NCBI GenBank assembly: GCA_002167215.1
Contig: NHDS01000005.1
Coordinates: 1-34,237 of the forward strand
From: Pelagibacteraceae bacterium TMED65
GTDB taxonomy: Bacteria > Pseudomonadota > Alphaproteobacteria > TMED127
DNA length: 34,237 nt
Direction of reading: 5' to 3'
Below the pieces are notes generated by a model that ran no database searches, was not told the DNA's origin, and saw only the letters and a program-made list of their open reading frames with translations. Both the position numbers and the translations under genes were made by a program. The number at the start of each line of letters is the position of its first letter. Position 1 is the stretch's first letter. Shown piece by piece: positions 1 to 21,336 of the stretch.

Positions 1-979
1 ATAAATTAATGGATTTAAAATGAACAAAAAAATTTTTTTTAACATTAAAGGTTTTATGCTTTAGTAAAATTGTTGGTTTATTTGAATATATTGCTTGAAA
101 TAATGCGTCTGAACTATGTCCCACCACAGCCTTGGAGCGAGATATTAAGTCTAAAGTTTTTCCGTAAATTATTTTCCTTCCTTCAAAATAATTTTTATCG
201 TAAGTGTATTTTTTAGAACAACTTATAATAACTTTAGTTTTATACTTTTTCTCTAAAATATTAAAAAATAAATTTATATCTTTAAGAAAAGTATTTACAT
301 TTGAAATTTTTTTCATTTTCTTATCAAATAAAAATTGATCTCTAGAAAAAAAAAGATTTTCATCCACATAAACGATAAAATTTTTTATTCGAGGCTTTTT
401 TTTTGAAGATTTAATCCAAATACTAGGACAATCTAAATATTTCGTTTTTTTGAAACCCATTTTTATAAAATTTTTTTTGGTTTCCGTTCCGAAGCCAACA
501 TAGTAATTTGGTTCATAATCATATTTCTTCATTGATAATATCAATTTTCTAGTTGCGACTCTAATATGCCTTAAAGTGTTTAAAAAAGTACTTTTTGACA
601 AATTAGATTTAAACCAAGGATCATAGTCAAACCATATTGTTTTGATTTTATATTTTTTAAATAACTTTAGATCAAAATTATTAAATTTAATCTCATTAAT
701 ACTTCTTTCTCTTAAGAACACTAAATCTTCTGACTTAATTTTTTTTACATAATTTTCAAACTCATTTTGACTATTAAGATAAATTACATTTTTAGGAATT
801 TCATTTGACGGTGTACTCTTATAATAATTTCTTATTTCATCTTTTGTAAAACTAATATTTTGTGTACTTAAAAATTTTAAATTAAATTTTGGATTTTTAA
901 ATTTTTTAGGAAAAACCATTTCCATTTGTTGATTTGCAAATGGCTGATCGATATAAATATAGAGATTATTTTTTTTCAA
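1..979 (-). CDS. GT-B-like surface glycan transferase, 3' end beyond window
   Basis: The frame stays open without a stop from 979 to the window edge, giving about 326 codons of an incomplete gene. The earliest possible start is a TTG at 979, directly after an in-frame stop. It gives MKKNNLYIYIDQPFANQQ and overlaps the 3' end of the upstream hisH-like gene by 14 bases. An in-frame ATG lies at 925. The N-terminus looks like the first beta strand of a Rossmann or GT-B fold. Near the visible C-terminal end, a segment around VVGHSSDALFQAIYSNKPTI resembles the nucleotide-sugar side of GT-B-like capsule proteins, where a Ser/Thr-rich loop is followed by a helix and a 'gkPvi' strand. Placement after an acetamidino-sugar trio suggests a transferase for that sugar, but this is inference. 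The exact family is unknown. Confidence 0.7.
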   Translation of the reverse strand, partial: MKKNNLYIYIDQPFANQQMEMVFPKKFKNPKFNLKFLSTQNISFTKDEIRNYYKSTPSNEIPKNVIYLNSQNEFENYVKKIKSEDLVFLRERSINEIKFNNFDLKLFKKYKIKTIWFDYDPWFKSNLSKSTFLNTLRHIRVATRKLILSMKKYDYEPNYYVGFGTETKKNFIKMGFKKTKYLDCPSIWIKSSKKKPRIKNFIVYVDENLFFSRDQFLFDKKMKKISNVNTFLKDINLFFNILEKKYKTKVIISCSKKYTYDKNYFEGRKIIYGKTLDLISRSKAVVGHSSDALFQAIYSNKPTILLKHKTFNVKKNFFVHFKSINL

Positions 980-1610
980 TTAAATTAATAAAATTTTTAT
1001 AAATCTTTATTCCTTCGCTTCCACTTTTTTCAGGATGAAATTGAGTAGCAAATATATTTTTATCAGAAACACTAGAACAATATTTAAAATCTAAATAATC
1101 CACATTAGATGAAATGATCAAGTCATCAGCTGGCTCCACGTAAAAAGAATGGGTGAAATAAAAAAATTCATGATCTTTAATATCTTTAAAGATTTTACAA
1201 TTTTTTTTTTTAATAATTTTGTTCCATCCAATAAATGGAATCTTTCTTTTTTTTCCTTGATAATCATGTTTAATTTTTTTAACTTTTCCTTTAAATATAT
1301 TTAATCCAGTATGATTTCCAAATTCACTACTTTCAGAAAAAAGAATTTGCATTCCAACACAAATAAATAAGATTGGTGTTTCTTTTTGCACAAAATTTAA
1401 AATTAATTTATCTAATTTTCTTTTTCTTAATTGTTCCATTACCTCACCAAAACTCCCAATCCCTGGAACAACTAATGCATCAATTTTTAAGTTGTCATCA
1501 AAATTTGATAAATGAATAACATTAGAATTGCACTCCTTCAGTGCATAAGTTACACTTTGAATATTAGATGTACCTGTATCTATAATTCCGATTGTTGGAA
1601 TATTAATCAT
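966..1610 (-). CDS. hisH: HisH-like glutamine amidotransferase subunit (trio 2)
   Basis: This is a class I glutamine amidotransferase of 214 residues, the usual length for HisH. The nucleophile Cys84 sits in FICVGMQIL, and His192 and Glu194 sit in QFHPEKS, so the catalytic triad is complete. An oxyanion-type PGIGSFGEV segment lies near residue 50. It would hydrolyse glutamine and pass ammonia to the HisF-like partner, whose stop codon overlaps this start by 4 bases. The location in a glycan locus beside an N-acetyl sugar amidotransferase points to the surface-sugar paralogue system (WbpG/HisH2/HisF2 type in Pseudomonas), not histidine synthesis. Gene order here is amidotransferase, HisF, HisH, the reverse of the other trio. 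Confidence 0.88.
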   Translation of the reverse strand: MINIPTIGIIDTGTSNIQSVTYALKECNSNVIHLSNFDDNLKIDALVVPGIGSFGEVMEQLRKRKLDKLILNFVQKETPILFICVGMQILFSESSEFGNHTGLNIFKGKVKKIKHDYQGKKRKIPFIGWNKIIKKKNCKIFKDIKDHEFFYFTHSFYVEPADDLIISSNVDYLDFKYCSSVSDKNIFATQFHPEKSGSEGIKIYKNFINLIEKK

Positions 1611-2437
1611 AATCTTATTTTAATTCCTCTTGAAATAAGATATTTTTTTAAATCTATTATAGAGGTTCCAGTTTTATCACTTTCTTTAAAAGATTGACTA
1701 AAAAAATTACTTCCTATGAGCTCTTTATCCCTAATTGGCTCATGGTAATGATAGTGAAACAATGATGCGATTGATATTGCATCAACATTGCAAAAATTAA
1801 ATAATTCATAAATATTATCAAATGGGCCAGCCCCTCCATGCGCTACAAACTGAACATCTATTTTTTTTCTTAATTTTTCATAGAGATCTAAATTAAAGCC
1901 TTTCTTTTTTCCTTCCATTGGTATTTCAGTCACAATAACTTCTCCAACACCAAGATTTTGAACTTTTTCAACCCATCTAAATAGTTCAATGCCTGTTCTT
2001 TCTCTTCCAGTTTCAATTAAAATTTCATATTTATTATTAATTTTTACGGTTTCTATGCTTGATGATATAGTTGAAGATCCATATTTTTTGACAAGATTTT
2101 TTAAAAAAATTGGGTTCTTAACTGCTGCTGAATTTATAACAACTTTATCGATTCCAATTCTTAAAAGCTTATCAACATCTTTTTCATCTCTTATACCTCC
2201 CCCAGAGGAAACATTCACAAATATTTTTTTTGAAATTTTTTCTATGATTTTAAAAAGCACATTTCGATTATATAAGGTGGCAACAATATCTTGGAAGTGT
2301 ATTTCATCAATTTTATCATAGTAATATTTACTCGAGAAAAATTCTGGATCTCCCAAATTTCTTAAACCTTCTAGATTTATTCCTTTAACGAGAATACCGT
2401 TTTTAACATCAAGTCTTGAGATTACTCTTTTGTACAA
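1607..2437 (-). CDS. hisF: HisF-like ammonia-channelling barrel (trio 2)
   Basis: This 276-residue (beta/alpha)8 barrel is close to canonical HisF in length and pattern. It keeps the first-strand motif RLDVKNGILVKG with Asp10, equivalent to catalytic Asp11 of Thermotoga HisF. It also keeps the phosphate-binding SGGGIRDE and AHGGAG loops. Two acidic positions differ: the Asp130 equivalent is Glu129 (SIETVK) and the Asp176-type DG is EG (MEGKKKG). This fits a barrel used to deliver ammonia to a partner sugar amidotransferase and not one making imidazole glycerol phosphate. It starts 8 bases after the amidotransferase gene and overlaps the HisH-like gene by 4 bases, so the three are likely translated together. 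Confidence 0.87.
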   Translation of the reverse strand: MYKRVISRLDVKNGILVKGINLEGLRNLGDPEFFSSKYYYDKIDEIHFQDIVATLYNRNVLFKIIEKISKKIFVNVSSGGGIRDEKDVDKLLRIGIDKVVINSAAVKNPIFLKNLVKKYGSSTISSSIETVKINNKYEILIETGRERTGIELFRWVEKVQNLGVGEVIVTEIPMEGKKKGFNLDLYEKLRKKIDVQFVAHGGAGPFDNIYELFNFCNVDAISIASLFHYHYHEPIRDKELIGSNFFSQSFKESDKTGTSIIDLKKYLISRGIKIRL

Positions 2438-2444
2438 TTTAATT

Positions 2445-3650
2445 TTATAAACTCTTTTTTAAAATCCACTGATTAGATTTTTTTTGCCAAATATGGTCAG
2501 GTCTAAACTTATCGCAAAGTTCAAGAAATTCCTCTTTCTTCATAGAAATATAATCATAAAATTCATTTTCATATCGCTGAGGATATTCTCCATCAAATTT
2601 CTTTATTAAAGCTTTTCCTTCATCTTTCGTGATGTGTCCATGTCTGACTTCTTCACATGAATCGGACATAGCCCTTCCGAAACCAAATTTAATATAGCTT
2701 GTGTAATGAAAAAATCCGTCAATTTTATCGTCCAAACTTTGATATTTAGTATAAGTTCCCTCAGTCCGTTGTGGATTTGGACTAAAATCTGTATTTTTAA
2801 CAGCGAAGTAATACATTTCTTGAGGTATCCACCTTAGAAAATATCCTAAGTAGTAAAAATTTATTTTTTTCTTCTTTATTGTTTCGATATTTAAGGGTCT
2901 ATAACTTTCTAAATCATTTAAAGTGACTCCTTCATCTAAATATTCCCTGATTTGTTTACCTCCTAGATATGCATCCTCAAATTTTTTTCCCTCCAAAGGA
3001 TCCATCTCGAACCCCCCTTGACTACCGCTTTCAGCAAAAGTTTTAGCTTTATGTGAAACTTCTTTACCTCCTTTACCTTGCATTTCACCGTAGAATATTA
3101 ATGGAATATTAAACTTTGCAGCAATTTTAGTAGCAAACATTTTTTGACCTATGATAAATGGCTGAAAAGGATGTAAAAGCCTTAATACCGCCTCTCTAGT
3201 TACAAGCTTATGTATTTTAGGATTTGGGGTATAAAGATAATTGTCAAATCCACCCTTGTGTAGCCAACTTTGAAAATTTTTCCATCCCACATCAGTATAC
3301 AGATGCGGTGACCATGTTACTGTCAAAGGATTCATTTTATACTTATGTTTCAAAATATAAGCTGCATAAATACTATCTTTTCCTCCTGATCCCGGAACAA
3401 TACAATCATATTCTCCGTTATTTTTTCTATTTGCATCACATAACTGCTTTAATTCTTCTTCTCTTTCTTTCCAGTTAATAACTTTTTCATCAAACTCTTT
3501 TTTTACAAAATGACATCCGGCACAAACTCCATTTTCATCAAATTTAACAGTTTTGTGAATAGTCTCTGGTGTATGAAAAAATTCATTTTTTCCTGTAGTT
3601 CTTTGATTAATTAAATTACAATTAACACAATATCGAATTTCTGAAGGCAA
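2445..3650 (-). CDS. N-acetyl sugar amidotransferase (trio 2)
   Basis: This is a PP-loop ATP-pyrophosphatase of the WbpG/PseA type, 401 residues. The N-terminus has a Cys-rich, probably zinc-binding segment (YCVNC, then VCAGC near residues 40-47), followed by the PP-loop VPGSGGKDS. Family members activate the acetamido oxygen of an N-acetyl sugar with ATP and replace it with ammonia to give an acetamidino group; the HisF/HisH partners supply the ammonia. The neighbouring legionaminate-type genes suggest a legionaminic- or pseudaminic-like substrate, but this is inference. The start is TTG at 3650. An ATG at 3655 is out of frame, and the upstream frame opens at the stop of the preceding gene. 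Confidence 0.87.
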   Translation of the reverse strand: MPSEIRYCVNCNLINQRTTGKNEFFHTPETIHKTVKFDENGVCAGCHFVKKEFDEKVINWKEREEELKQLCDANRKNNGEYDCIVPGSGGKDSIYAAYILKHKYKMNPLTVTWSPHLYTDVGWKNFQSWLHKGGFDNYLYTPNPKIHKLVTREAVLRLLHPFQPFIIGQKMFATKIAAKFNIPLIFYGEMQGKGGKEVSHKAKTFAESGSQGGFEMDPLEGKKFEDAYLGGKQIREYLDEGVTLNDLESYRPLNIETIKKKKINFYYLGYFLRWIPQEMYYFAVKNTDFSPNPQRTEGTYTKYQSLDDKIDGFFHYTSYIKFGFGRAMSDSCEEVRHGHITKDEGKALIKKFDGEYPQRYENEFYDYISMKKEEFLELCDKFRPDHIWQKKSNQWILKKSL

Positions 3651-5302: not shown

Positions 5303-6431
5303 TAAGTTTTGAGATAATTTTATTAAGCTGATTAATACTTAGAGACGGATAAGAAGGTAAACATAAACTTCTATCTACCAAGTCAAGAGCATTACTAATT
5401 TTATAATTTTGAAATTTTTTAAAAGGTTTTTGTAAATGATTTAGTTTCCATATAGGTCTTACTATTATTTTATTTTTAAGAAAATTTTTTATCAATTTAT
5501 CTTTTTTGATTTTTTTTGTATTTTTAATTTTTAAAATATTCATCCAATTATTGTTTATAGAATACTGAGGTGTATCAGCTAATTCAAAATTATTAATTTT
5601 TTTTATTTTTGATAAATAATAATTTCTTATTATTTCTTTTTTTTTTAAGAAGAATTTAAATTGCTCTAATTGGCTTAAGCCTAAAGCTGCAGAAATATTT
5701 GTCATACGATAGTTATAACCAATTTCATTATGGACAAAATTTATAGGGTCATCCTTTGCCTGTGTGGTTAAGTATCTGGCTTTATTTGCAAGTTTTAAAT
5801 TATTTGTTAAAATTATGCCTCCACATCCGGTTGTAATAATTTTATTAGAGTTGAAAGATATAGCTCCAAATAAGCCTTTTGTACCTGTGTGGTCACCATT
5901 TTTATACCTTGATCCTAAACTTTCACTCGCGTCTTCTATAATTTTTATGTTTTTTAATTTGCACTCTTTTACTAATTTATCAATGTCTACCGCGTTCCCC
6001 CAGACATGGGTCACAACTAGTGCAGAAATTTTTCTTTTTGTTTTTTTATTATAAGTGAAATTATTTTTTTTAAATGTCTGATCTCTAAGAAATTCTAAAG
6101 TTTTTTTTGCGTCTATATTGTAATATTTATCACAATCCATAAATATTGGATTACATTCATTATAGATTATAGTGTTTATAGTCGCTACAAAAGTTAGTGT
6201 TGGAGCAATAATTTCATCTCCTGGAGATATGTCAGATAATTTTATACTTATATGAAGTGCAGATGTGCCAGAGTTACATGCTATTGCATGCTTAACACCA
6301 GTTATTTTTTCAATTTTTCTTTCAAACTTATTTATTAAATTACCGCCAGTTGACACCCATCCTGTGGATACGCATTGTTTAAAATATTTTAAGGCTTTTT
6401 TATTTATAGATGGAGGGTATAAATGTATCAT
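5295..6431 (-). CDS. legC: LegC-type PLP sugar aminotransferase
   Basis: A DegT/DnrJ/EryC1/StrS aminotransferase of 378 residues, normal for the family. It shows the CNSGTSALH phosphate-binding stretch near residue 53, the EDASESLGS aspartate segment near 167-174, and the PLP lysine Lys197 in ISFNSNKIITTGCGG. The 'PP...' opening and the NSNKIITTG pattern resemble LegC, which transaminates a nucleotide-linked 4-keto sugar on the way to legionaminic acid. PtmE-like and NeuD-like genes lie immediately downstream. The partner dehydratase (LegB), epimerase (LegG), synthase (LegI) and CMP transferase (LegF) are not beside it and may lie past the left edge. Confidence 0.82.
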   Translation of the reverse strand: MIHLYPPSINKKALKYFKQCVSTGWVSTGGNLINKFERKIEKITGVKHAIACNSGTSALHISIKLSDISPGDEIIAPTLTFVATINTIIYNECNPIFMDCDKYYNIDAKKTLEFLRDQTFKKNNFTYNKKTKRKISALVVTHVWGNAVDIDKLVKECKLKNIKIIEDASESLGSRYKNGDHTGTKGLFGAISFNSNKIITTGCGGIILTNNLKLANKARYLTTQAKDDPINFVHNEIGYNYRMTNISAALGLSQLEQFKFFLKKKEIIRNYYLSKIKKINNFELADTPQYSINNNWMNILKIKNTKKIKKDKLIKNFLKNKIIVRPIWKLNHLQKPFKKFQNYKISNALDLVDRSLCLPSYPSLSINQLNKIISKLNG

Positions 6432-6474
6432 TATTTTATAATAATTAATTTCAATTAATTTTTAAAAATTAACT

Positions 6475-7500
6475 TTAGTATTTTTTAAGTATCTCTTTAA
6501 TATAAAATTTTTCTAAATTTTTAAATTTTTTAAAATAAGATTCTCTTATTTTATTTTTGAGTAATTTACTATCAGAATTATTTAGATGTTTTTTTAAATC
6601 ATTCTTAATTATTTCAGAAGTAAATAATAAATTTTGATTAGAAATAATTCTTGGCACTTTATTTTTTTTCATAGTTTTGAAGGTAATTTTGTCTAATTTT
6701 GATCCAAGTTTTTTAGAAACTTTTTTTAGATAGTAATTTGGATTAGCTATAAGTGTTTCAAAAGGAATAATAACATAATCAGATTTATACTTTTTTGAAA
6801 GTTTAAAAAGCGCTTTTAATGATTGATAATAATAGACTTCAATTAAATAAATAGCTTTTTCATAATTGTTTAGTTTAGAATAATGATTAATATTTCTTTT
6901 ATCCACTTCATAAGGCAAATTAATCTTATATTTTTTTGAGTAATAATTAATTCTTCCATCTCTGCTATCAATCCTTTTAAATAATTCAGCCCATCTTGCC
7001 ATTGAACTTAACATAAATAAATCTGAGGGGTTTCTAAGAATAATGATATATAATAATTTTTTCTCAAATGCTTTAAAAACCGGTTCTGCATAAGGCGTTA
7101 ACGTATGAGTCATAAATTGTAAAATATTTTTAGTTTTTTTGACTTTTTTCTCTGCAATCTTATCAGTCATTTTCAACCTTTTAATTATTTCCTTAAATCT
7201 TGGATGATTTTTTATTGACGAGAAGTCTTTATTTCTAAAATTTGCATGTCTTAAAATAAAGGCATCAAAGTATTTTTCATTATAAATTTTCTTAATAAAA
7301 TCTGCGCTTATAGAAGTATTTATTCTATTTAACTTATTTAATGCACAAATTCTCTCAATATTTGAGTCATATATCCATTGTTCAACATTTTTTATTCCGG
7401 ATATAAGATTACAAATAAGAGTTTTTCCTCCTCCTACCATTCCATCTGTAACAATAATTTTATTTTTTTTATAAATATTAGTCTTAAATGTATTTCTCAT
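6475..7500 (-). CDS. Sulfotransferase-like P-loop protein
   Basis: This 341-residue protein opens with a Walker A-like loop, GMVGGGKT at residues 20-27, placed where sulfotransferases bind the 5'-phosphosulfate of PAPS. A central strand-helix IIILRNPSDLFMLSS resembles the 3'-phosphate-binding 'RdP.d...S' motif of the same superfamily, and YVIIPFETLIANP resembles its following strand. It could add sulfate to the glycan, but the loop is as rich in glycine as a kinase loop, so a nucleotide-dependent kinase is an alternative. The start ATG shares one base with the TAA of the upstream HisF-like gene. A 43-base gap separates it from legC. Confidence 0.55.
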   Translation of the reverse strand: MRNTFKTNIYKKNKIIVTDGMVGGGKTLICNLISGIKNVEQWIYDSNIERICALNKLNRINTSISADFIKKIYNEKYFDAFILRHANFRNKDFSSIKNHPRFKEIIKRLKMTDKIAEKKVKKTKNILQFMTHTLTPYAEPVFKAFEKKLLYIIILRNPSDLFMLSSMARWAELFKRIDSRDGRINYYSKKYKINLPYEVDKRNINHYSKLNNYEKAIYLIEVYYYQSLKALFKLSKKYKSDYVIIPFETLIANPNYYLKKVSKKLGSKLDKITFKTMKKNKVPRIISNQNLLFTSEIIKNDLKKHLNNSDSKLLKNKIRESYFKKFKNLEKFYIKEILKKY

Positions 7501-8324
7501 TATAAGTTATTTTTTCTGTTGCCAAAAGATGCCTCAAGTTTTTTGATTTCTAACATATCCCATTTTGGAAAAGGAATATCTTTTTCTAAAAGTTTATTTC
7601 TTGTTTTAATCAATCCATCCCCTACAAAATTCAATAAGTTTGATGTTGAGATGGCATCAACATCAGTTTTTTTTAAAGTTTCATAAATGTGATTAAAATT
7701 TCCTGTTCCACCTGATAAGATAATTGGTTTTTTAAAATTATCAGGAAGTAAAGAAAGAATTTCATAATCTAAACCTGTTCCTGTCCCGTCTTTAGTAATT
7801 GAATTTAAAAATATTTCTCCAAATCTTAATTCGGATATTTCTTTAAAGATATCCTTTGGTGTTTTTTTTATTTTATTTTGCCCGTTGTCTGAATATACAT
7901 AATAATCTTTATTATCTTTTTTTAAATCAATACCAATTATTATAGATTGTTCTCCAAAAGTTGAGCTAATATCATTTATCACTTCGTAATTTTTTAAAAA
8001 TTCTGTATTGACCAAAATTTTATCAGATCCATTTGTAAGAAAATATTTAGCATCCTCTAGAGATTTTATACCACCACCAACAGTTATAGGAACAAAGCAA
8101 AGCTCTGATATTTGCCTTACATTTTCTATAAATTTTTTCTTATCTTTTTTTTCTCTCGAAATATCTAATACAATTAATTCGTCAATATAAAATGAAATAT
8201 TTTTAAAGTTATAATTTTTTTTAAGCCAATTAATATCTCCAACTTCTTGTAAATCAAAATTTCTACTTTGGCAGAAAAAATCATTACTATAAAGAAGTGT
8301 GAAGATTAATCTTTTCTTAATCAT
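7500..8324 (-). CDS. hisF: HisF-like ammonia-channelling barrel (trio 1)
   Basis: A 274-residue HisF-type barrel that keeps TVGGGIKSLEDA near residues 81-92 and the LSGGTGNFNH phosphate loop. The canonical first-strand 'LDV..G..VKG' with catalytic Asp11 is replaced by TLLYSNDFFCQSRNF, so that aspartate is missing. The second catalytic position, Asp133 in GIDLKK, and the KDGTGTG segment are kept. Known partners of sugar amidotransferases belong to this HisF paralogue group, so a role as ammonia conduit is more likely than histidine synthesis. The start overlaps the HisH-like stop by one base (TAATG), and its own stop overlaps the next gene in the same way. Confidence 0.85.
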   Translation of the reverse strand: MIKKRLIFTLLYSNDFFCQSRNFDLQEVGDINWLKKNYNFKNISFYIDELIVLDISREKKDKKKFIENVRQISELCFVPITVGGGIKSLEDAKYFLTNGSDKILVNTEFLKNYEVINDISSTFGEQSIIIGIDLKKDNKDYYVYSDNGQNKIKKTPKDIFKEISELRFGEIFLNSITKDGTGTGLDYEILSLLPDNFKKPIILSGGTGNFNHIYETLKKTDVDAISTSNLLNFVGDGLIKTRNKLLEKDIPFPKWDMLEIKKLEASFGNRKNNL

Positions 8325-8941
8325 TAATACTTAATAAAATTGCTTAAAACTTTTAAACCACTTGACTGACTTTTTTCAGGATGAAATTGAACCCCAAAAA
8401 TATTATCATCTTGAAAAGCTGCTAAAAATTCGGATCCGTAACTGCTTAAGGCGTAATTCTTGTTATCTTCTAAATTCATCTTATAAGAATGTACAAAATA
8501 AAAGTTATCACTACTGTTTATATCTTTAAATAAAGGGAAATTTTTTGATAAATCGGTAATGTTGTTAAAGCCTACGTGGGGAACTCTTAAAACATTTTCC
8601 TTGTCAAATTCGAATTTTGTTACTTTATTCTGTACAATTTTAAGACCCTTATTGTACCCATCCTCAGTACTAGAATCTCCAAGTAATTGCATGCCTAAGC
8701 ATATACCTAAAATTTTCTTTTTCTTAATTAAAGCTAAGTTTTTTAATTCATCGATTAATTTTAATCTTTTTAAATTGCTCATTGCTTGCTTAAATGAGCC
8801 AACTCCAGGTAGCACAATCATTGAGTAATTTTTAATTTCCTCTGCTTTATCGCTTAGCTTAAAATCAACTCCAAGAAATTTAAATGCATTTACAACAGAA
8901 TTAATATTACCCATTCCGTAATTCACTATTACAACTTTCAT
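8324..8941 (-). CDS. hisH: HisH-like glutamine amidotransferase subunit (trio 1)
   Basis: A class I glutamine amidotransferase of 205 residues. Cys81 lies in GICLGMQLL, and His187 and Glu189 lie in GVQFHPEKS. The N-terminal VVIVNYGMGNINSV and VLPGVGSFKQAM are typical HisH segments. It should generate ammonia for the HisF-like barrel downstream, which delivers it to the amidotransferase upstream. The amidotransferase ends 7 bases before it and HisF overlaps by one base. All catalytic residues look intact. Confidence 0.88.
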   Translation of the reverse strand: MKVVIVNYGMGNINSVVNAFKFLGVDFKLSDKAEEIKNYSMIVLPGVGSFKQAMSNLKRLKLIDELKNLALIKKKKILGICLGMQLLGDSSTEDGYNKGLKIVQNKVTKFEFDKENVLRVPHVGFNNITDLSKNFPLFKDINSSDNFYFVHSYKMNLEDNKNYALSSYGSEFLAAFQDDNIFGVQFHPEKSQSSGLKVLSNFIKY

Positions 8942-8947
8942 TAATAA

Positions 8948-10060
8948 TTAGCGTGGTTCAAATTTAGGTACCCACCTACCATTAATTTTTTTAAAAAGAG
9001 ATTTGTTTACGTGGGTGTCTAAAACATTATGAAATTCATCTTTTTTCATTTCATAATAATCTAAATACTGATCCAAAAATTGTTCTGGGTAACTGTTATC
9101 ATAAATCTTTACTAAATTTAGAGCCTGATCTCTTGTCATTGCGCCTCTTCTGATCTCAATTCCAGCATCTTGCGTTGCTCTTCCAAAGCCAAATTTTAAA
9201 TACATCAAATAAGTATGTAACGCGAATAAGGCTTGATCGTTTTGTGCAAAATTAGTAAATGTACCGACATTTGTTGTTCCGCTTTCTTCAAAGTCATACT
9301 TTTCTTTAGCAAATAAATAGTTTCTATATGAATCCCAGGGCTCGAAGTAACTCCAATGAGTAAGTTTAATATCACTTTCAAATAGTTCCTTTTCATCGAT
9401 TCTAAACCAATATAGTTCTGCTTTACTTAAACCACTTTCTTTGCAGATTTCTTTATAATCACCCTCAAAATAATTCTTTATGATATATTTTGGATCAAAA
9501 AATGGCTTGTGTTTATTTTGAGTTGAACCACCATACTCGATTTCACCGTCCTCAGAGTAAAAGATCAATTTTATTTTGTGGTTAAGAGCAACTCTTATTA
9601 CAGAGGAAAAAATTGAAACTAACCAACCATAGTATGGCGAACCTTTTTTTATAAATCCTAACTTGTTCATTTTTTTCATCGCCTTACTATTTTGAGTAAT
9701 ATGAATATGCTCAAATCCTTGCCTTACAAAATTTATAAGATTTTTCTTCCCTAGATTTAATTCAAGTGGTGGTCTAGAGGTAACAGTTAAAATATTTAAA
9801 TTGTATTTATCTTTTAGTTGATAAGAAACATAAGTGCCATCTTTACCTCCACTTACAGGAACCAAACAATCATAATTCCCTTTCTTGCTTTTTTTAATAT
9901 CATTCAATATTTTAGTAAGTAATTTCTGTCTTTCTAACCAATTAAATTTTTTCTTTTCTTCTGTCCACTGACACGCATTACAATGACCTATTTCATTAAA
10001 AGATATTCTTGGTCTTGTTGACATATTTAAACAGTTTTTACACCAATAGTAGTTAGTCAT
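8948..10060 (-). CDS. N-acetyl sugar amidotransferase (trio 1)
   Basis: A PP-loop amidotransferase of the WbpG/PseA group, 370 residues when started at the ATG at 10060. That start leaves a 4-base gap after the ABC transporter gene and puts the Cys-rich motif (YYWCKNC, then HCNAC) right at the N-terminus, as in relatives. The longer reading from 10102 would add 14 residues overlapping the transporter. The PP-loop reads VPVSGGKDGTY, with Gly where the other copy has Ser. It would convert an N-acetyl group to acetamidino using ammonia from the two following genes. It is clearly diverged from the second copy at 2445-3650, so the two probably act on different sugars or positions. Confidence 0.87.
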   Translation of the reverse strand: MTNYYWCKNCLNMSTRPRISFNEIGHCNACQWTEEKKKFNWLERQKLLTKILNDIKKSKKGNYDCLVPVSGGKDGTYVSYQLKDKYNLNILTVTSRPPLELNLGKKNLINFVRQGFEHIHITQNSKAMKKMNKLGFIKKGSPYYGWLVSIFSSVIRVALNHKIKLIFYSEDGEIEYGGSTQNKHKPFFDPKYIIKNYFEGDYKEICKESGLSKAELYWFRIDEKELFESDIKLTHWSYFEPWDSYRNYLFAKEKYDFEESGTTNVGTFTNFAQNDQALFALHTYLMYLKFGFGRATQDAGIEIRRGAMTRDQALNLVKIYDNSYPEQFLDQYLDYYEMKKDEFHNVLDTHVNKSLFKKINGRWVPKFEPR

Positions 10061-10064
10061 TTTT

Positions 10065-11894
10065 TTAAAATAGATTATCTTTTTCTGTAGTTTTTTTAAC
10101 ATCTATGAGATTTTTGAAATCCTCATTAGATTTTATTAAATTTTCATAATTATCAAAGCCGCTAATAATTCCTCTATGAAGAAAAATAATTTTGTTAAAT
10201 CTTTTAATTACATCATTTTTATGAGCAATCATTATTACCGTAATTTCTTTTCCAAAGTTTTCTAAAAAGGCTAGTATTTCGTTTTCTGTTAAATTATCCA
10301 AAGAATTAGTTGCTTCATCTAAAATCAAAATCTTTGGATCATTGTATAAAGCTCTGGCAATACCCAGTCTTTGTTGTTGTCCTCCTGACAATTTTATTCC
10401 TCTCTCTCCAACTTCTGTATTTTCTTTATGTGGTAATGACTCAACTACTTTTGATAGCTTTGTTTTTTTAATTAATTCTTTTACTTTATTAATATCTATA
10501 TCCTTTTTAGGAATACCAAAGGCTATATTTTCTTTTATTGATCTTTCATTAAAAAAAATAGATTGAGGAACGAAACCCAAAATTTTTTGCCAATTATTAA
10601 GATTTGAAATATTAATTTTTTCATTATCAATTAAAATTTCACCACTACTTGGTTTAAGTAGTCCTAAAATTATATTAATTAAAGTTGTTTTTCCAGATCC
10701 ACTTAAACCTGTTAACGCTATCTTGTCGCCTCGTTTTATTTCAAAACTTAAATTTTTTACTATTGATAAATTTTTATTATTGTAATCAAAGCTTAAATTA
10801 TTAATTATTATTTTATTAAAATTTGAAAAATTTGTATTATTTCTAAGTTTTAAATCTTTTAAATCTTCATTTTGAATAGATTTTTTTAAATCTTCAGATA
10901 TTTGGTCAAGGGCAGGTATATGATTTTTAATTATAGTAAGATGATAATAAATTTGTTGAAATGCAGGAATTATTTTATAAGAGCATATAATAAATATTGA
11001 TAAGCTAATTATAATTTCATTGAATGTTAAATTTAAACTCCTGCTTAAAAATAAAATGATCAATACAGTAAATACAAAAAAGAATAATTCGATTAAATAT
11101 CTTGGAAATTTTCCGATTATATCTCTATTAACTTCGATTTGCACTAATTTAGCAAAAAGTTGATCATAAATATTTTTAAAAAAATCGAACTTGTTCAAGA
11201 TTTTTACTTCTTTAATGCCATTTAATCCTTCTTGTAAAATTGAATATTTTTTTTCGGTAATTACACTTTCTGTTTTTCCCAAATTACCCATCTTATGTCT
11301 AAATAATCTAAAAAAAATCATGTAAGAAGTTAAAATTAGAAAAATAGAAATAACCGCGACTAATGGTTGATATATTATCAAGCCAGTAAGTAACGGAAGA
11401 AGAAAAATTATTTTTGATATTATAACAAGCGAGGGTTCTAGTACAAAATTAGATACTCTTCTCACAAGTTCAAAAATATTATTCATAAGTTGCGATGAGG
11501 AAGAATTAATATGGAATAAATAATTTTTCCTCAAATAATATCTGAAAAGGCTGCTCTCCATTTCTCCTCCGGTTGTTAAAGAAAGCTTAGATGTAAAATA
11601 AATAGTAGCCAAAACAAAAATACTATTGAGTGCAATTGTAAATATTAAAATATAGCTAAATGTTTCTAAATTTAAAAAATCTGTATTCAAATTTAAAATA
11701 TTTGCAAATCTTTCAATTATACTTACGCCTGAACTAAAACCTTCAGATCCCAAAATCGAAACAAACTCAATTAAAAAAACTATTGTAGTTATTTCAATTA
11801 AACTTGAAAATACCATCAAAAACAAAAGTATTGAAAGCCTAGTTTTTTGCTTTTTATTTAGGATATCAAATAAGAAATTTATTTTTTTTATCAC
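10065..11894 (-). CDS. ABC exporter/flippase with fused membrane and ATPase domains
   Basis: A half-size ABC exporter of 609 residues. Residues 1 to about 320 carry six likely membrane spans. The ATPase domain follows, with Walker A GLSGSGKTT at 396-404, signature LSGGQQQRL at 502-510, Walker B ILILDE at 522-527 and the H-loop histidine at 558. It resembles MsbA and particularly PglK-like flippases that move lipid-linked oligosaccharides across the inner membrane, so it likely exports the glycan or its lipid-linked repeat unit. No Wzx, Wzy or Wzm/Wzt gene is visible in the window, making this the only visible candidate for the export step. It begins 9 bases after the KdsB-like gene. Confidence 0.9.
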   Translation of the reverse strand: MIKKINFLFDILNKKQKTRLSILLFLMVFSSLIEITTIVFLIEFVSILGSEGFSSGVSIIERFANILNLNTDFLNLETFSYILIFTIALNSIFVLATIYFTSKLSLTTGGEMESSLFRYYLRKNYLFHINSSSSQLMNNIFELVRRVSNFVLEPSLVIISKIIFLLPLLTGLIIYQPLVAVISIFLILTSYMIFFRLFRHKMGNLGKTESVITEKKYSILQEGLNGIKEVKILNKFDFFKNIYDQLFAKLVQIEVNRDIIGKFPRYLIELFFFVFTVLIILFLSRSLNLTFNEIIISLSIFIICSYKIIPAFQQIYYHLTIIKNHIPALDQISEDLKKSIQNEDLKDLKLRNNTNFSNFNKIIINNLSFDYNNKNLSIVKNLSFEIKRGDKIALTGLSGSGKTTLINIILGLLKPSSGEILIDNEKINISNLNNWQKILGFVPQSIFFNERSIKENIAFGIPKKDIDINKVKELIKKTKLSKVVESLPHKENTEVGERGIKLSGGQQQRLGIARALYNDPKILILDEATNSLDNLTENEILAFLENFGKEITVIMIAHKNDVIKRFNKIIFLHRGIISGFDNYENLIKSNEDFKNLIDVKKTTEKDNLF

Positions 11895-11903
11895 GAAAAT
11901 TTA

Positions 11904-12626
11904 CTAATTAAAGTACTTTTGTATTTTTTTAAGATCGGCTTTTGTGTCTACAGCGTAAATTTTTGTTTTAAGTTTTACCATTAAAATTTTATACCCTTTT
12001 TCTAAGAATCGTAAAATTTCAATATCTTCTAAATTTTCTAAATAGGTTTTTTTTGTTGAATTAAACTTTAAGAGCTCTTTTTTGTTGAACGCGTATATGC
12101 AAACTTGCTTAAAGTATTTAGCTTTGCTTTTTTTATTTTTAAATCCTGGAATTTGAGAACGTGACATATAAATCAGCTCTTTTTTTTTATTTAAAACTAA
12201 CTTAGGAATATTTATATTTTCAACTCTTTCGTCCTTGTTTAAATCAGTATATCCACAAATCACTTTGTTGAAATTTTTAATTTTAGCTTTAATAATTTTC
12301 TTTATATCTAAAGGGTTTATCAACGGTTCATCGCCTTGAACATTTATATAAATATTTGCTGAAATTTTTCTAGCTACTTCTGCAACTCTATCCGTTCCCG
12401 TTAAACATTTTTTTGAAGTCATTAAAGATTTATATCCATTATCTTTAACTAATTTATGAATTTGCTCATTGTCTGTCGCCACTATTAGTCCAACTTGTTT
12501 TCCAATAATTTTTTTACATTTTTCAATAACCCTCAGAATTAACTCTTTTCCTTTTATTTTCTTCAAGGGTTTTCCAGGTAATCTAGAGGATTTGTACCTA
12601 GCTGGTATTATTATTAAAACCTTCAT
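11904..12626 (-). CDS. kdsB: KdsB-like CMP-ulosonate cytidylyltransferase
   Basis: This 240-residue protein matches 3-deoxy-manno-octulosonate cytidylyltransferase in length and motifs: IIIPARYKSSRLPGKPL at the N-terminus, LTGTDRVAE near residue 80, INVQGDEPLI near 95-104, and a C-terminal YAVDTKADL. KdsB-type enzymes couple CTP to a 2-keto-3-deoxy sugar acid to form the CMP-activated donor. It directly follows an aldolase-fusion gene with no spacer, which suggests it activates the product of that enzyme and is not necessarily the housekeeping Kdo enzyme. Confidence 0.85.
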   Translation of the reverse strand: MKVLIIIPARYKSSRLPGKPLKKIKGKELILRVIEKCKKIIGKQVGLIVATDNEQIHKLVKDNGYKSLMTSKKCLTGTDRVAEVARKISANIYINVQGDEPLINPLDIKKIIKAKIKNFNKVICGYTDLNKDERVENINIPKLVLNKKKELIYMSRSQIPGFKNKKSKAKYFKQVCIYAFNKKELLKFNSTKKTYLENLEDIEILRFLEKGYKILMVKLKTKIYAVDTKADLKKIQKYFN

Positions 12627-14237
12627 TTATATTTTAAATAGTGGAATTTTATAATTTGTACTTGTTAAGGTTTTAATCTTTGGATTTTTATTATATCTAG
12701 AGATTATTTTCTTTAATAAAAAATTAGTTTCATCGGTTGAAGGATCATTTTTTTTATAACCATCAAATCCTGCCAAATATATTGCTTTCGCTTGGCCAGA
12801 AATAGCTACTGAAATAGCATAAATTATCGCTAGTGGACTTGGAATATTGCAATAATTTTTATTAATTAATAATTTTTTTTTATTGTTAAGCCTTAAACCA
12901 AAGTCAAAAATAAATTTATTTTCAATATTAAATAGATTTTTAAGCTTGATCGGCATCATTGATAGCGGCATTACCATATTTACTCTAGATTTATTATGAA
13001 GATTGACGTCAGAAATTATTCTATGAGGATGGCAAATTGCTCTTAAATTAATCAAATTTTCAGATATTCCTAAACTTGTATTAACACTAATAACGAACAA
13101 ATTATTTTTGAAGATGAATTTTTCTATTTTTTCTTTATTTCTTTCAACTGATTTACCAGGTCCAATTATTAAAATCTTTTTAAGTTTAAGATCTTTAGCT
13201 GGTAACCATTCACCTTTTCCTTTACTCAAATATGTAGCATTTGGAAAAAATAGTTTATTAATGTTATATTTTGTGCTCTCTATATTTTTTAAATTATTGA
13301 TGATTTGTAAGTAATTTTCTTTTTTATAACGTTTATCAGACAACATTTCTTGAATGTAAGTAGGATGAATTTTATATTTAGCTGCTAGAGCATAGTATTT
13401 ATTGCTTCCCCATTTAAAATTTTTATGAAGGTCTATAAAATACTTATTTTTAATCTTGTTTATAAGTTGTAAGTCTCTTGGATGATAAGATTTTATTATT
13501 TCTTCAGTTTTCAAATTACCAGGCCCTCTTCCCATACCTAAAATAGTACAATCTATCCATTTAAAATGATTATTGATTGCGAAAATTGAATTTTTTAATG
13601 CTAAATTTAGATTATTATGCGCGTGTAAACCTAAATCACCTTTCCAATAAGTTTTAAATTTAGTTATTATTTTGCTAAATTCTTTTATCTTCAAACTCCC
13701 TAAACTATCTGCAAGATATATTGCTCTTATTTTTTTAGTTTTTAAAAATTTACAAATTTTTGAAATATTAATATCTTCAATTTCAGAAATTTGCATTATA
13801 TTCACAAATACATCTATATTTTCTATTTCAAGCCAATTAAAACACTCTTTCAGCTGAAAAACTTCGTTGAAATGGCATGCAAACCTTACAAATTTAATTT
13901 TAGAATTTCTTTTTGGAAATAATTTTTTTAAATACTTAAGTGAATTTTCTTTATTATTTATAAGTTCACTAGCGTTTATCATTACTCCTAAATTTAAATT
14001 TTTTGGAATATTAAGAGAGTTTACTAATTTATCATCTGTGTATGCGGTCAATCCCATAAGATAATTTTTTTTCAAAAATCTAAATCCTAGCTCTATGTAA
14101 TTGATGTTTGTTTTACTTATTTCTTTAATATAAAATTTAATAAGGCTTAAAGAAAAATCCCAGTTATTGTAATAACCACCGTCTCTTAATGTGCAATCAA
14201 GAAGATTAAATCTATTTTTAAAACTCTTCAATTTCAT
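12627..14237 (-). CDS. DRE-TIM aldolase fused to a C-terminal DUF115-like domain
   Basis: Residues 1 to about 290 are a DRE-TIM metallolyase of the 4-hydroxy-2-oxovalerate aldolase/HMG-CoA lyase type: LLDCTLRDGGYYNNW at the start, a GLHAHNN metal-binding motif and GMGRGPGNLKTEEI. The remaining part starts with ILIIGPGKSVERN, a Rossmann-like loop, and contains AIYLAGFDGYKKND, reminiscent of DUF115/MptE-like domains. Total length is about 536 residues, far longer than a plain aldolase. The ATG at 14237 is preferred; a TTG at 14249 would add four residues. Paired with the adjacent KdsB-like gene, it may join or cleave a pyruvate-derived unit to build a 2-keto sugar acid, which is inference. Function of the C-terminal half is unknown. 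Confidence 0.72.
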   Translation of the reverse strand: MKLKSFKNRFNLLDCTLRDGGYYNNWDFSLSLIKFYIKEISKTNINYIELGFRFLKKNYLMGLTAYTDDKLVNSLNIPKNLNLGVMINASELINNKENSLKYLKKLFPKRNSKIKFVRFACHFNEVFQLKECFNWLEIENIDVFVNIMQISEIEDINISKICKFLKTKKIRAIYLADSLGSLKIKEFSKIITKFKTYWKGDLGLHAHNNLNLALKNSIFAINNHFKWIDCTILGMGRGPGNLKTEEIIKSYHPRDLQLINKIKNKYFIDLHKNFKWGSNKYYALAAKYKIHPTYIQEMLSDKRYKKENYLQIINNLKNIESTKYNINKLFFPNATYLSKGKGEWLPAKDLKLKKILIIGPGKSVERNKEKIEKFIFKNNLFVISVNTSLGISENLINLRAICHPHRIISDVNLHNKSRVNMVMPLSMMPIKLKNLFNIENKFIFDFGLRLNNKKKLLINKNYCNIPSPLAIIYAISVAISGQAKAIYLAGFDGYKKNDPSTDETNFLLKKIISRYNKNPKIKTLTSTNYKIPLFKI

Positions 14238-14269: not shown

Positions 14270-15052
14270 TTATAACTCCCCTTTTTTTCTCATTTCTTCT
14301 CTGATTTTTGTAGCTGAGATTTTTTGAGTCTCTTCGTCAAGAATTATTTCCTCAATCTTGTAACCAACTCCTCTTCCGTAACATATGTTGGTTATATTAG
14401 GCACTAAAGAAATTTTTATTCTATCTTTATAATCCTTTAAAGCTAACTCAATTTTTTTTTTAACCTCTTCAAAATTGAAAGGATTGTCTCTAACTCCTTT
14501 TACATCACGCACCATAATATTTACTTGACCTGTCTTTCTAAATATTTCTATAAAAAGTTTATGATGACCTTCATGCCAGGGTTGCCATCTTCCAAGCATC
14601 TGAGCTGTTGGTTTTTTATTATCCCATTGATACTTATCAATTTGATCGGCAATCAAAAATTTGTAAAGATCTGCGTTCTTTTCTTTTACTATGAAATTAA
14701 CCTCATTTTCTTTAGGCTCTTCAAACATTTTATTTGTGTCTTCGTACTTGCTTTTTGAAATTGTGTTCATCCAAATTATATAATCTGCTTTGAAGTTTTC
14801 TCTAGTTTTTCTAGTTGGGCATATAAAGTCTGCGATAACATGTTTCCCGCTTGCTAGTGCTTCTTGGGAAAGCTTATTCATCCTGTCTGCCTGCCTTACT
14901 CTTCCTGCCAAACTAAAATCCCAATCGTTAGCCTCTTTTCTAATTTTGTCTGCATTTAACCATACAGCACCTAGTACTTGAGCCAATCTTTCACTTAAAT
15001 AACTTTTACCGGAGCCTGGGAAGCCCATCGTTAAAATTTTTTTTTTGGTCAT
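14270..15052 (-). CDS. APS-kinase-like P-loop kinase fused to a nucleotidylyltransferase
   Basis: The first ~125 residues look like an adenylylsulfate-kinase-type domain: P-loop GFPGSGKS at 10-17, NADKIR at 33-38 (compare DGDNVR) and ADFICPTRKTR near 74-84. Residues ~148-260 are a compact nucleotidylyltransferase with the HEGH motif at 160-163 and ISATKIR at 245-251. A full ATP sulfurylase is far larger, so this is not a standard PAPS synthetase. A fused kinase plus cytidylyl- or adenylyltransferase acting on a small alcohol or sugar is more likely. The codons appear less A/T-saturated than neighbours by eye. A 20-base gap to the gene before and after its operon mates suggests co-transcription. 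Confidence 0.75.
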   Translation of the reverse strand: MTKKKILTMGFPGSGKSYLSERLAQVLGAVWLNADKIRKEANDWDFSLAGRVRQADRMNKLSQEALASGKHVIADFICPTRKTRENFKADYIIWMNTISKSKYEDTNKMFEEPKENEVNFIVKEKNADLYKFLIADQIDKYQWDNKKPTAQMLGRWQPWHEGHHKLFIEIFRKTGQVNIMVRDVKGVRDNPFNFEEVKKKIELALKDYKDRIKISLVPNITNICYGRGVGYKIEEIILDEETQKISATKIREEMRKKGEL

Positions 15053-19537: not shown

Positions 19538-21336
19538 TTATTTTTTCAAAATAAAAAAATTATTTAATAACAATCCATCAAGATCGCTTTTTAATAAAAC
19601 ACTGATTGCATCCTTAGGTGTATTCACAATTGGAAATCCATGTAAATTGAAACTTGTATTAAGCAATGCTCCAACGCCAGTTATTTTATGAAACTCTGAA
19701 ATTAATTGGTATAATTCTGGATTTTGTTTTTTTTCTAGAATTTGAGCTCTAGCCGTCTTGTCAGCAGGATGACATGCTGCAATCATTTTTTTATATCCTA
19801 ACTCTGTAGTTTCAAAGCCTATTGTCATGTGGGGAGACTCAATCTTTTTTGGATTGATCAAATATTTCTCACTAAATTTTTTTAAAATTACAGGCGCAAA
19901 TGGCATCCAAAAATCTCTATTCTTAATAGCTGAGTTAATTTTTTCTTTGATTTCTAAAAATCTCGGATCGGCTAAAATAGATCTATTCCCTAAAGCTCTT
20001 TGTCCAAACTCCATTCTTCCTGCGCATCTAGCGATTATTTTTCCTTTTGATAAAAAATTGGCAACTTGCTTAAGAGAATGCTTCTTATAAATATTAAATT
20101 TTTTTTTATTTAATTTTTTTATAGATTTATTTTCTTCAATATAATTATTAGATGGACCTAAATACAAATTTGAGATTTGAGGAAACTTTTTAAAACCAAA
20201 TTTCTCACCATTTTTTTTATGAAGTTTATCAAGTAAGAAAATTCCAGCACTTAATGCCATTGACTCATCGCTAGCTGATCCGCCAACAAATAATCTTTTT
20301 ACACCATGTATTTGTGAAATTTTTCCCATTGCTTTAATATTCAGAGCAACTCCTCCTGAAATCACAACATTTGATATTTTAAATTTTTTAAGACAATTTT
20401 TAACCCACTTCACAAGCAATTCCTCTACCCAGGTTTGGACTGCCCAAGCAATACTATCAAATCGCTCTCCCTCTAATCTAGACTTAAACCAAAAATAACT
20501 ATCGGTTGGTTTTTGTTTCCATATAAATTTTGTTCCCTTGACTTGTAAAGTGCTTCTAAAAACCTCTAATGCTTTTTTACCGTATTTCTCCTTGCCGTAA
20601 GGTGCCAAGCCCATTAATTTATATTCATGTTCATTTGGTTTCATTCCAAGTAATAGTGTCATATACCGGTAGATACGAGCTATTGCGCAAATATTTGTTT
20701 TATAAACTCTTCTGTAATTACCGCTTTTATCAAAAATTCCTATAGTTGAATTTAAACCATCTCCAAATCCATCAATAGTCAATGAAAGTACCTTTTTATC
20801 TTTAAATGGAGAAATATAGTAAGAGTAAAACGCATGACAAGTATGATGATCTAATCTGATTACTCTAGACCTGTCTATATTGAAATAATCTGCCACCATA
20901 TTCACTCTGTCAGTAAGATATTTTTTTTGGATATCTTTTTTTTGTAATTTTTTTTCCAATATTTTTTTGGGTACATATCAAAATTAATTTTTTCAGGAAA
21001 TATATCTATTGGGGATTTTTTAAATTTATCAGTTTTATCGATTAAATAAGGCTTCCAGATTTGATTTTGTTCTTTGAGGTAATCTTCTACTGTCCATTGA
21101 TTTTTTCTTGTAATTGTATCATCAAAAGGACTTATAAAACTTGCTAATGCAATATAGTCTAGGTCTGAAGTTTTAAGTTTTGCTTCTTTTAAACAATATT
21201 TAATTGCATTTATCGGGAAGACAATCTCATTTTTTACACGCGTAAATCTCTCTTCGTGAGTAGCAGCAATAATTTTATTATCAATAATTATAGAAGCTGA
21301 GGATGGATAATGAGTATAAAGGGAAAGAATTTTCAT
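19538..21336 (-). pseudogene. NodU/CmcH-type carbamoyltransferase, broken by a one-base frameshift
   Basis: Two overlapping frames together make one carbamoyltransferase. The N-terminal frame runs from ATG 21336 to a stop at 20902-20904 (MKILSLYTHYPSSASIII, HEERFTRVKN). The C-terminal frame, readable from about 20959, carries the metal-binding DHHTCHAFYSYY, the VISGGVALNIKAMG segment, the RMEFGQRALGNRS motif and NTSFNLHGFPIVNTP. Adding one A to one of the A7-A8 tracts between 20921 and 20969 restores a single ~599-residue protein, the normal family size. Intact homologues carbamoylate hydroxyl groups using carbamoyl phosphate and ATP. The lesion may be real decay, transcript slippage rescue or a sequencing error. 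Confidence 0.82.

Follow-up and report, generated by a model that had tools for sequence, protein, structure and literature searches.

In the Kdo pathway (KdsA-KdsC-KdsB-WaaA), a C-C bond is formed, the product is dephosphorylated and activated with CMP, and the sugar is then transferred. To our knowledge, the CMP-activated ulosonates (Kdo and the sialic, legionaminic and pseudaminic acids) are all built by PEP-dependent synthases. In aldolases of the DmpG/BphI type, the RDG motif is followed by a catalytic His that serves as general base. The locus described here has a DRE-TIM aldolase next to a KdsB-like gene. No description of this gene pair was found in the titles, abstract openings and selected passages of the open-access literature, for the part of the result lists covered. 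A term search of the main texts of two annotated papers on marine capsules (PMC11766843, PMC11641403) met neither 'aldolase' nor 'kdsB'.

Results

The aldolase fusion protein

Judged by its nearest sequence relatives, the window (the whole stretch of 34,237 nucleotides that was analysed; GC content 25.9%) is a surface-glycan island of the SAR11/Pelagibacter type. Its features are collected in Table 1.

Table 1. Position, strand and basis of assignment of the features of the window.
Feature	Position	Strand	Basis or remark
KdsB-like, putative CMP-ulosonate synthetase with exchanged active-site residues Q174, C176, I204	11904..12626	(-)	NF009905
Aldolase fusion ORF	12627-14237	(-)	ATG start, 536 aa
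C-terminal half, residues ~340-536 + stop; PF01973/DUF115-like, proposed CMP-ulosonate transferase	12627..13220	(-)	Weak PF01973, hhalign
N-terminal DRE-TIM (HMGL-like, PF00682) aldolase half, residues ~1-330	13248..14237	(-)	PF00682, 3dxi
Kinase (APS-kinase/AAA_33-like) - HxGH nucleotidyltransferase fusion	14270-15052	(-)	PF13671, PF01583, PF01467
Two separate HisH/HisF-like gene sets with WbuX-like amidotransferase	966-3650 and 7500-10102		
Second WbuX-like gene	2445-3650		Judged by eye
Carbamoyltransferase over two overlapping frames (19538-20959 and 20902-21336)	19538-21336		
660-aa fusion of CTP_transf_3, DUF4910/DUF2172 and winged helix	24523-26505		Adjoins NeuB

The initial annotation had described a DRE-TIM aldolase with a DUF115-like half, adjoining a KdsB-like gene. 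This was borne out, the TAA stop of the aldolase ORF being followed directly by the ATG of the KdsB-like gene. The ORF listing also offers a TTG start 4 codons earlier, which gives a 540-aa version of the protein.

PF00682 matched residues 124-259 of the 540-aa version (E 1.1e-22). The closest solved structure was PDB 3dxi, a 'putative aldolase' (E 8e-36, residues 11-319 of the 536-aa version), and the next closest were 4-hydroxy-2-oxovalerate aldolases. The latter are also the nearest named family: their models outscored synthase models, and homocitrate, citramalate and isopropylmalate synthases were more weakly similar to the DRE-TIM half. The score for TIGR03217 (4-hydroxy-2-oxovalerate aldolase) was 67.5 bits, below the cut-off of 286. 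A protein search with the aldolase protein gave 3736 matches. No PHROGs family was found at E<=1e-5 for the aldolase or the KdsB of the window, or for one of the viral fusions described below (L157, positions 5998-7695).

Alignments comprised the window and 78 related loci (see below); L012 and L074, for which ORF calling gave no clean aldolase ORF, were left out. R18, D19, Y22, H205, H207 and N241 were identical in all 79 sequences. When aligned to 1nvm, R18, D19, H205 and H207 formed a metal-site motif kept in 79/79; presumably they have the roles of the metal-site Asp and HxH and of the adjacent Arg in 4-hydroxy-2-oxovalerate aldolase. Tyr22 takes the place of the catalytic His of DmpG/BphI throughout (79/79). 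The chemistry of the aldolase half may thus differ from that of DmpG/BphI, and its catalytic detail must.

The C-terminal half

PF01973 (MptE-like, formerly DUF115) matched the last 197 aa with E 0.0025 and 18.1 bits, short of the gathering score of 34.6. When 34 C-terminal halves were searched and all matches of E<=1 considered, PF01973 appeared in 16 and DUF498, which looks unrelated, in nine. With hhalign, a profile of 79 C-terminal halves matched eight PF01973 proteins along a GxGPS stretch of 42 columns (probability 94%). After addition of twelve phage proteins and under relaxed settings, the match spanned 184 columns at 13% identity and took in the '..I.L.G.D' motif near the end. The hhalign probabilities against PF01973-type proteins were 93.9% and 94.2%. 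N386, R399, H403, R406, D410, D445 and D492 were identical in 79/79 halves. Searches for solved structures with two PF01973-type proteins gave nothing useful. Kinship with a transferase-like protein beside the Marinobacter cassettes was also considered and rejected (hhalign probability 0.7%).

A passage of PMC11339370 likens the PF01973 domain of Maf to Cst-II and names CMP-Neu5Ac and Kdo as Maf donors. By analogy with Maf and Cst-II, the C-terminal half perhaps transfers a CMP-activated sugar. Comparison also supports the initial suggestion to the extent that the half looks transferase-like.

Conservation of the gene pair in bacterial genomes

A scan of genome contigs gave 302 relatives of the aldolase protein. 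The best 80 of these were kept, a choice by similarity that favours full-length fusions; in this set both halves lay in a single ORF of 528-564 aa in 78. Partners were sought by seeds on the same strand, from 1.2 kb upstream of the aldolase to 4 kb downstream of it. A cytidylyltransferase was present in 79 of the best 80 (of 302) loci, KdsB-like in 48 and NeuA-like in 33, with both in two. It lay less than 100 bases downstream in 68 loci, further downstream in seven and only upstream in four. In the one locus missed by the seeds (L057), the cluster table places an ORF of a cytidylyltransferase cluster two genes downstream. Since the pair is kept in 79/80 relatives, the linkage is more than chance, and the doubt that these genes might not be linked in other genomes does not apply to the aldolase and the cytidylyltransferase. 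We refer to the linked genes as the cassette.

Of the best 80 loci, 63 had a HAD phosphatase in the 4 kb downstream, and one example was of HAD-IA type. The 17 loci without it were nine of Pelagibacterales together with L012, L016, L019, L021, L032, L039, L052 and L078. There was little room for it in L012 and L016, and in L032 a HAD of the same cluster lay upstream on the other strand. None was found in the nine loci of Pelagibacterales, to which the window is related, five of them with 5 kb or more of sequence downstream, nor in the window with the same seeds. The HAD phosphatase is the commoner third member of the cassette outside SAR11. An HpcH/HpaI aldolase, nearest to HpaI and GarL, was present in seven of the best 80 cassettes; in the other 73 the span that was searched held no HpcH match. 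A match to the NeuB of the window was found within the fetched stretch in 7/80 loci. The nearest model of one NeuA-like cassette sequence was PseF, far below the PseF cut-off.

By their record titles, the cassettes come from Pseudomonadota, Bacillota, Prochlorococcus, Garicola (Actinomycetota) and Sulfuricurvum (Campylobacterota); those with a KdsB include Bacillota, a Prochlorococcus, Garicola and a Sulfuricurvum. Garicola falls among Halomonadaceae in both trees, so recent transfer or contamination is possible there. On a Leisingera plasmid the trio is annotated as aldolase, 3-deoxy-manno-octulosonate cytidylyltransferase and HAD hydrolase. On a quick tree of the aldolases, the labels KdsB-like and NeuA-like changed 14 times, at least 10 of the changes being forced by starred branches; the mean for shuffled labels was 24.6. 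From this swapping, the aldolase looks like a constant part that feeds two synthetase families. The changes fit a single aldolase product with exchangeable synthetases, and different products are also possible.

Unfused aldolases were seen on two rhizobial plasmids (L111, L114) beside SDR and HAD-IA genes, with a pyrroline-5-carboxylate reductase or phosphoserine aminotransferase nearby, a set that we cannot explain, and on a Priestia plasmid beside neither SDR nor HAD-IA. No cytidylyltransferase is annotated near these three in the gene table, which is incomplete. A Streptomyces record carried no annotation.

The kinase-nucleotidyltransferase gene

The gene upstream of the aldolase ORF, at a gap of 32 bases, is a real kinase-nucleotidyltransferase fusion, as initially read, with matches to PF13671, PF01583 and PF01467. 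Its score of 25.4 bits lies below the apsK equivalog cut-off of 138.7. The proposed order of three genes including it did not hold: it was absent from 80/80 of the best genome loci (tblastn, E<=1e-6), and a looser search of the same 80 gave one meaningless match (E 0.94). The three-gene order is thus not a conserved unit. Apart from the aldolase, the fusion occurs widely (7720 homologues, 35 viral loci, phrog_10255), and we discarded it as a pathway member. No aldolase was found near the 35 viral loci, for which as much as 6 kb to each side had been fetched. The only hint of a connection, and the sole exception seen, was a metagenome protein of 672 aa (P0099) in which the kinase half is fused to the aldolase.

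Active-site residues of the KdsB-like synthetase

The KdsB-like protein of the window scored 284.7 against the cut-off of 255 for subfamily NF009905, just passed TIGR00466 (155.9 vs 155.2) and fell short of NF003948 (158, cut-off 281). Its relatives L010 (148.1) and L157 (123.3) missed TIGR00466, and a housekeeping KdsB copy of SAR11 (L173), which is outside the tree described next, scored 180.6.

A tree was made of 43 cassette KdsBs (the window and 42 loci, the other six of the 48 KdsB-type loci having failed at ORF calling; only the last 262 residues of long ORFs were used) and 16 non-cassette KdsBs; from the latter group the cassette copies L102, L105, L108 and L109 were left out, and L107 of Bacillus was added. 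The cassette proteins formed one clade with branch support 99/97.

Table 2 of PMC12058783 lists KdsB active-site residues including Q98, R157, H185, E214 and Q215 (3DUV numbering). These were mapped onto H. influenzae KdsB 3DUV by counting on the alignment; the listed Lys74 was left out, residue 74 of the chain not being Lys by this count. His185 was replaced by Gln in 43/43 cassette KdsBs, the window included, and Gln215 by Ile in 40/43, again including the window (Leu in two, a gap in one). In the non-cassette group His and Gln were each kept in 15/16. The exception was L107, whose branch is long and in which both sites hold other residues. His and Gln were also kept in the five PDB chains for which an alignment was shown, including a pair that represents one H. 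influenzae enzyme. Q98, R157 and E214 were kept in 43, 43 and 42 of the 43 cassette KdsBs, and correspond to Q97, R156 and E203 of the window protein.

A passage of PMC3149649 describes the C-terminal domain of KdsB as Kdo-binding, and from their place in this domain we infer that His185 and Gln215 contact Kdo itself. Since these residues are exchanged, the substrate of the cassette KdsB is probably not Kdo.

Aldolase-KdsB fusions in viruses and metagenomes

When viral contigs were scanned with the aldolase, one relative was found (L150), a single protein of 573 aa in which the aldolase is fused to a KdsB-like domain. A search with this fusion gave 1612 matches, and the 120 listed all carry PF00682 and PF02348. 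At the position of His185, the 120 listed (of 1612) had Gln in 118 and His in none, two not being read; at the second motif, the Gln215 site, they had Ile in 92 and Val in three, with 25 not read by the pattern.

A viral scan with the fusion gave 19 loci, comprising 16 fusions (seven groups at 95% identity) and three that matched the KdsB part only. One of the 16 was cut by the contig end, and L151 is the contig of L150. A PF01973-like protein lay near the fusion in 12/16 loci (6/7 groups), and a small HAD in 13/16 (5/7 groups). The PF01973-like protein of L150 scored 33.6 bits against the gathering score of 34.6, and its small HAD had no match in Pfam. In the L160 group the fusion is accompanied by NeuA-like and NeuB-like genes as well. 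Two of the 16 fusion records contain a capsid gene of the T4 type (Gp23); in the other 14, mostly fragments, none was seen. The phage glycan islands (L150-L166) also carry 2OG oxygenase and glycosyltransferase-like genes.

The activities are thus joined in two different ways, and this argues strongly that aldolase and synthetase work on a single product. The direct aldolase-KdsB fusion suggests that the product of the aldolase is the substrate of KdsB.

Keto-acid synthases elsewhere in cassette genomes

Twenty-two cassette genomes, whose completeness was not stated, were searched for the KdsA and NeuB families. KdsA was over its cut-off in 18/22, including all seven SAR11 genomes, in each of which a separate KdsB of housekeeping type was also read. 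The concern that the KdsB of the cassette might be the only Kdo enzyme therefore does not hold for the relatives, 7/7 SAR11 genomes having a separate KdsA and KdsB. A NeuB-family match was over the cut-off in 15/22, at only 32-37 bits in G008, G019 and G021. KdsA or a full NeuB was present in 20/22 genomes and could supply keto-acids there; Prochlorococcus G020 and a Bacillales MAG (G016) had a full NeuB without a KdsA over the cut-off.

In Rossellomorea (G008) and Metabacillus (G019) the KdsA-family match reached only 127-130 bits (cut-off 314), and the NeuB-family matches of 32 and 37 bits (Pfam cut-off 22.1) fell on the same gene. This gene codes for DAHP synthase and chorismate mutase in one bifunctional protein (653 and 661 bits against a cut-off of 279). 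No PEP-dependent ulosonate synthase other than DAHP synthase was found in these 2/22 genomes. DHDPS-family aldolases gave two matches in G008 and one in G019.

Bacillus sp. PS06 has a Kdo-like operon in a Gram-positive (L107; G021:C29 200-9000). It consists of a HAD with a KdsC-like start, a presumed SIS-domain ORF, KdsA (407 bits), a PF01973 protein and a KdsB-like gene (TIGR00466 135 vs cut-off 155.2) with unusual active-site residues.

Discussion

We consider it fairly probable that the cassette makes, activates and transfers an ulosonic acid other than Kdo by a PEP-independent aldolase route. The DRE-TIM half would be a metal-dependent aldolase of the pyruvate type that joins a three-carbon keto-acid unit, by its family probably pyruvate, to a sugar aldehyde, filling the slot held by PEP-dependent KdsA or NeuB in known pathways. 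Outside SAR11 the linked HAD suggests that the aldehyde is probably a phosphate ester, from which the HAD-IA enzyme would remove the phosphate. The KdsB-like or NeuA-like enzyme, to judge by its family, would make the CMP-sugar, which the PF01973-like C-terminal half, as a relative of Maf/Cst-II-type transferases, would pass to a glycan. The phages have another cut of the same parts, with the aldolase fused to KdsB, and mostly a separate PF01973-like protein and a small HAD nearby. An aldolase route to an unusual CMP-linked ulosonate had been proposed in the initial annotation, and the comparison of sequences supports it in the conserved pair, the fusions and the exchanged KdsB residues. Nothing in the comparison spoke for chain shortening, which the initial annotation had offered as another possibility. 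The main weakness of the pathway reading is the HpcH/HpaI aldolase in seven cassettes together with the missing HAD in SAR11. Where it occurs, HpcH/HpaI would double the aldol step or take it over, and could be the true ulosonate maker.

This last point leads to an alternative that we regard as unlikely, in which the aldolase acts elsewhere in the pathway (in cleavage or remodelling of a precursor, or in making the aldehyde) and the keto-acid that KdsB or NeuA activates comes from HpcH/HpaI, NeuB, KdsA or a lyase of the DHDPS type. Besides HpcH/HpaI in 7/80 loci, the NeuB-family matches in 15/22 genomes, the DHDPS-family genes of G008 and G019 and the Tyr22 in place of the catalytic His are in its favour; however, HpcH was missing within the searched span in 73/80 loci, and the direct fusion of aldolase and KdsB suggests that the one makes the substrate of the other. 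Decidedly unlikely, in our judgement, is an ordinary bypass to CMP-Kdo. Here the aldolase would add pyruvate to arabinose 5-phosphate, the HAD would act like KdsC, and KdsB would be a second Kdo-activating enzyme, in the way that KpsU serves capsules. The family name and sequence of KdsB are in favour of this, and an extra, capsule-specific CMP-Kdo synthetase is mentioned in PMC3149649. Yet two active-site residues retained in 15/16 non-cassette KdsBs are exchanged in 43/43 and 40/43 of the cassette enzymes, and in the SAR11 relatives KdsA and a further KdsB are present already. That the DRE-TIM half carries out Claisen-type or other chemistry (e.g. acetyl-CoA with a keto-acid), leading to a branched or carboxylated sugar acid, seems very improbable: the similarity to homocitrate, citramalate and isopropylmalate synthases that would point this way is the weaker one, the models of 4-hydroxy-2-oxovalerate aldolase scoring above them.

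Taken at its widest, the aldolase reading becomes a PEP-independent pathway to an undescribed class of CMP-ulosonic acids in SAR11, several phyla and T4-like phages, with the synthase fused to its own transferase in cells or to the CMP-synthetase in phages; on this wider claim we are evenly divided. To judge by the phage fusion, a large part of the route may be carried by some viruses, serving their own glycans or those of the host. An aldolase-based route, if true, would be a new way into the CMP-ulosonate sugars. Marine bacteria, SAR11 relatives included, would then be expected to bear an acidic sugar that is new, and many proteins (3736 and 1612 matches) would gain a function; the present names of some of these are '4-hydroxy 2-oxovalerate aldolase' or 'CMP-KDO synthetase'.

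Comparison with known systems

The roles assigned to the cassette are those of the known CMP-ulosonate pathways, but the proposed synthase is of another kind, and there is a good chance that the sugar is new. With the Kdo pathway the cassette shares the order of roles and a KdsB homologue; it differs in having a DRE-TIM aldolase instead of PEP-dependent KdsA, a phosphatase of HAD-IA type, exchanged active-site residues in KdsB and a PF01973-like half fused to the aldolase. The sialic, legionaminic and pseudaminic acid pathways (NeuB, NeuA/PseF, Maf, Cst-II) resemble it in the NeuA/PseF-like synthetase, found in 33/80 cassettes, and in the PF01973-type domain, whereas the constant member of the cassette, in the place of NeuB, is the aldolase. 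The DmpG/BphI type (1nvm, 4jn6) and 3dxi have, by sequence, the same DRE-TIM domain, with Arg-Asp and HxH kept, but the cassette aldolase reads RDGGYYNNW where DmpG/BphI has RDGSH, and it is fused to a transferase-like or KdsB half. The HpcH/HpaI aldolases (HpaI, GarL, 2-keto-3-deoxy-L-rhamnonate aldolase) are, by family name, pyruvate aldolases of 2-keto-3-deoxy acids; they belong to a separate family (PF03328), and in the cassettes they are optional (7/80).
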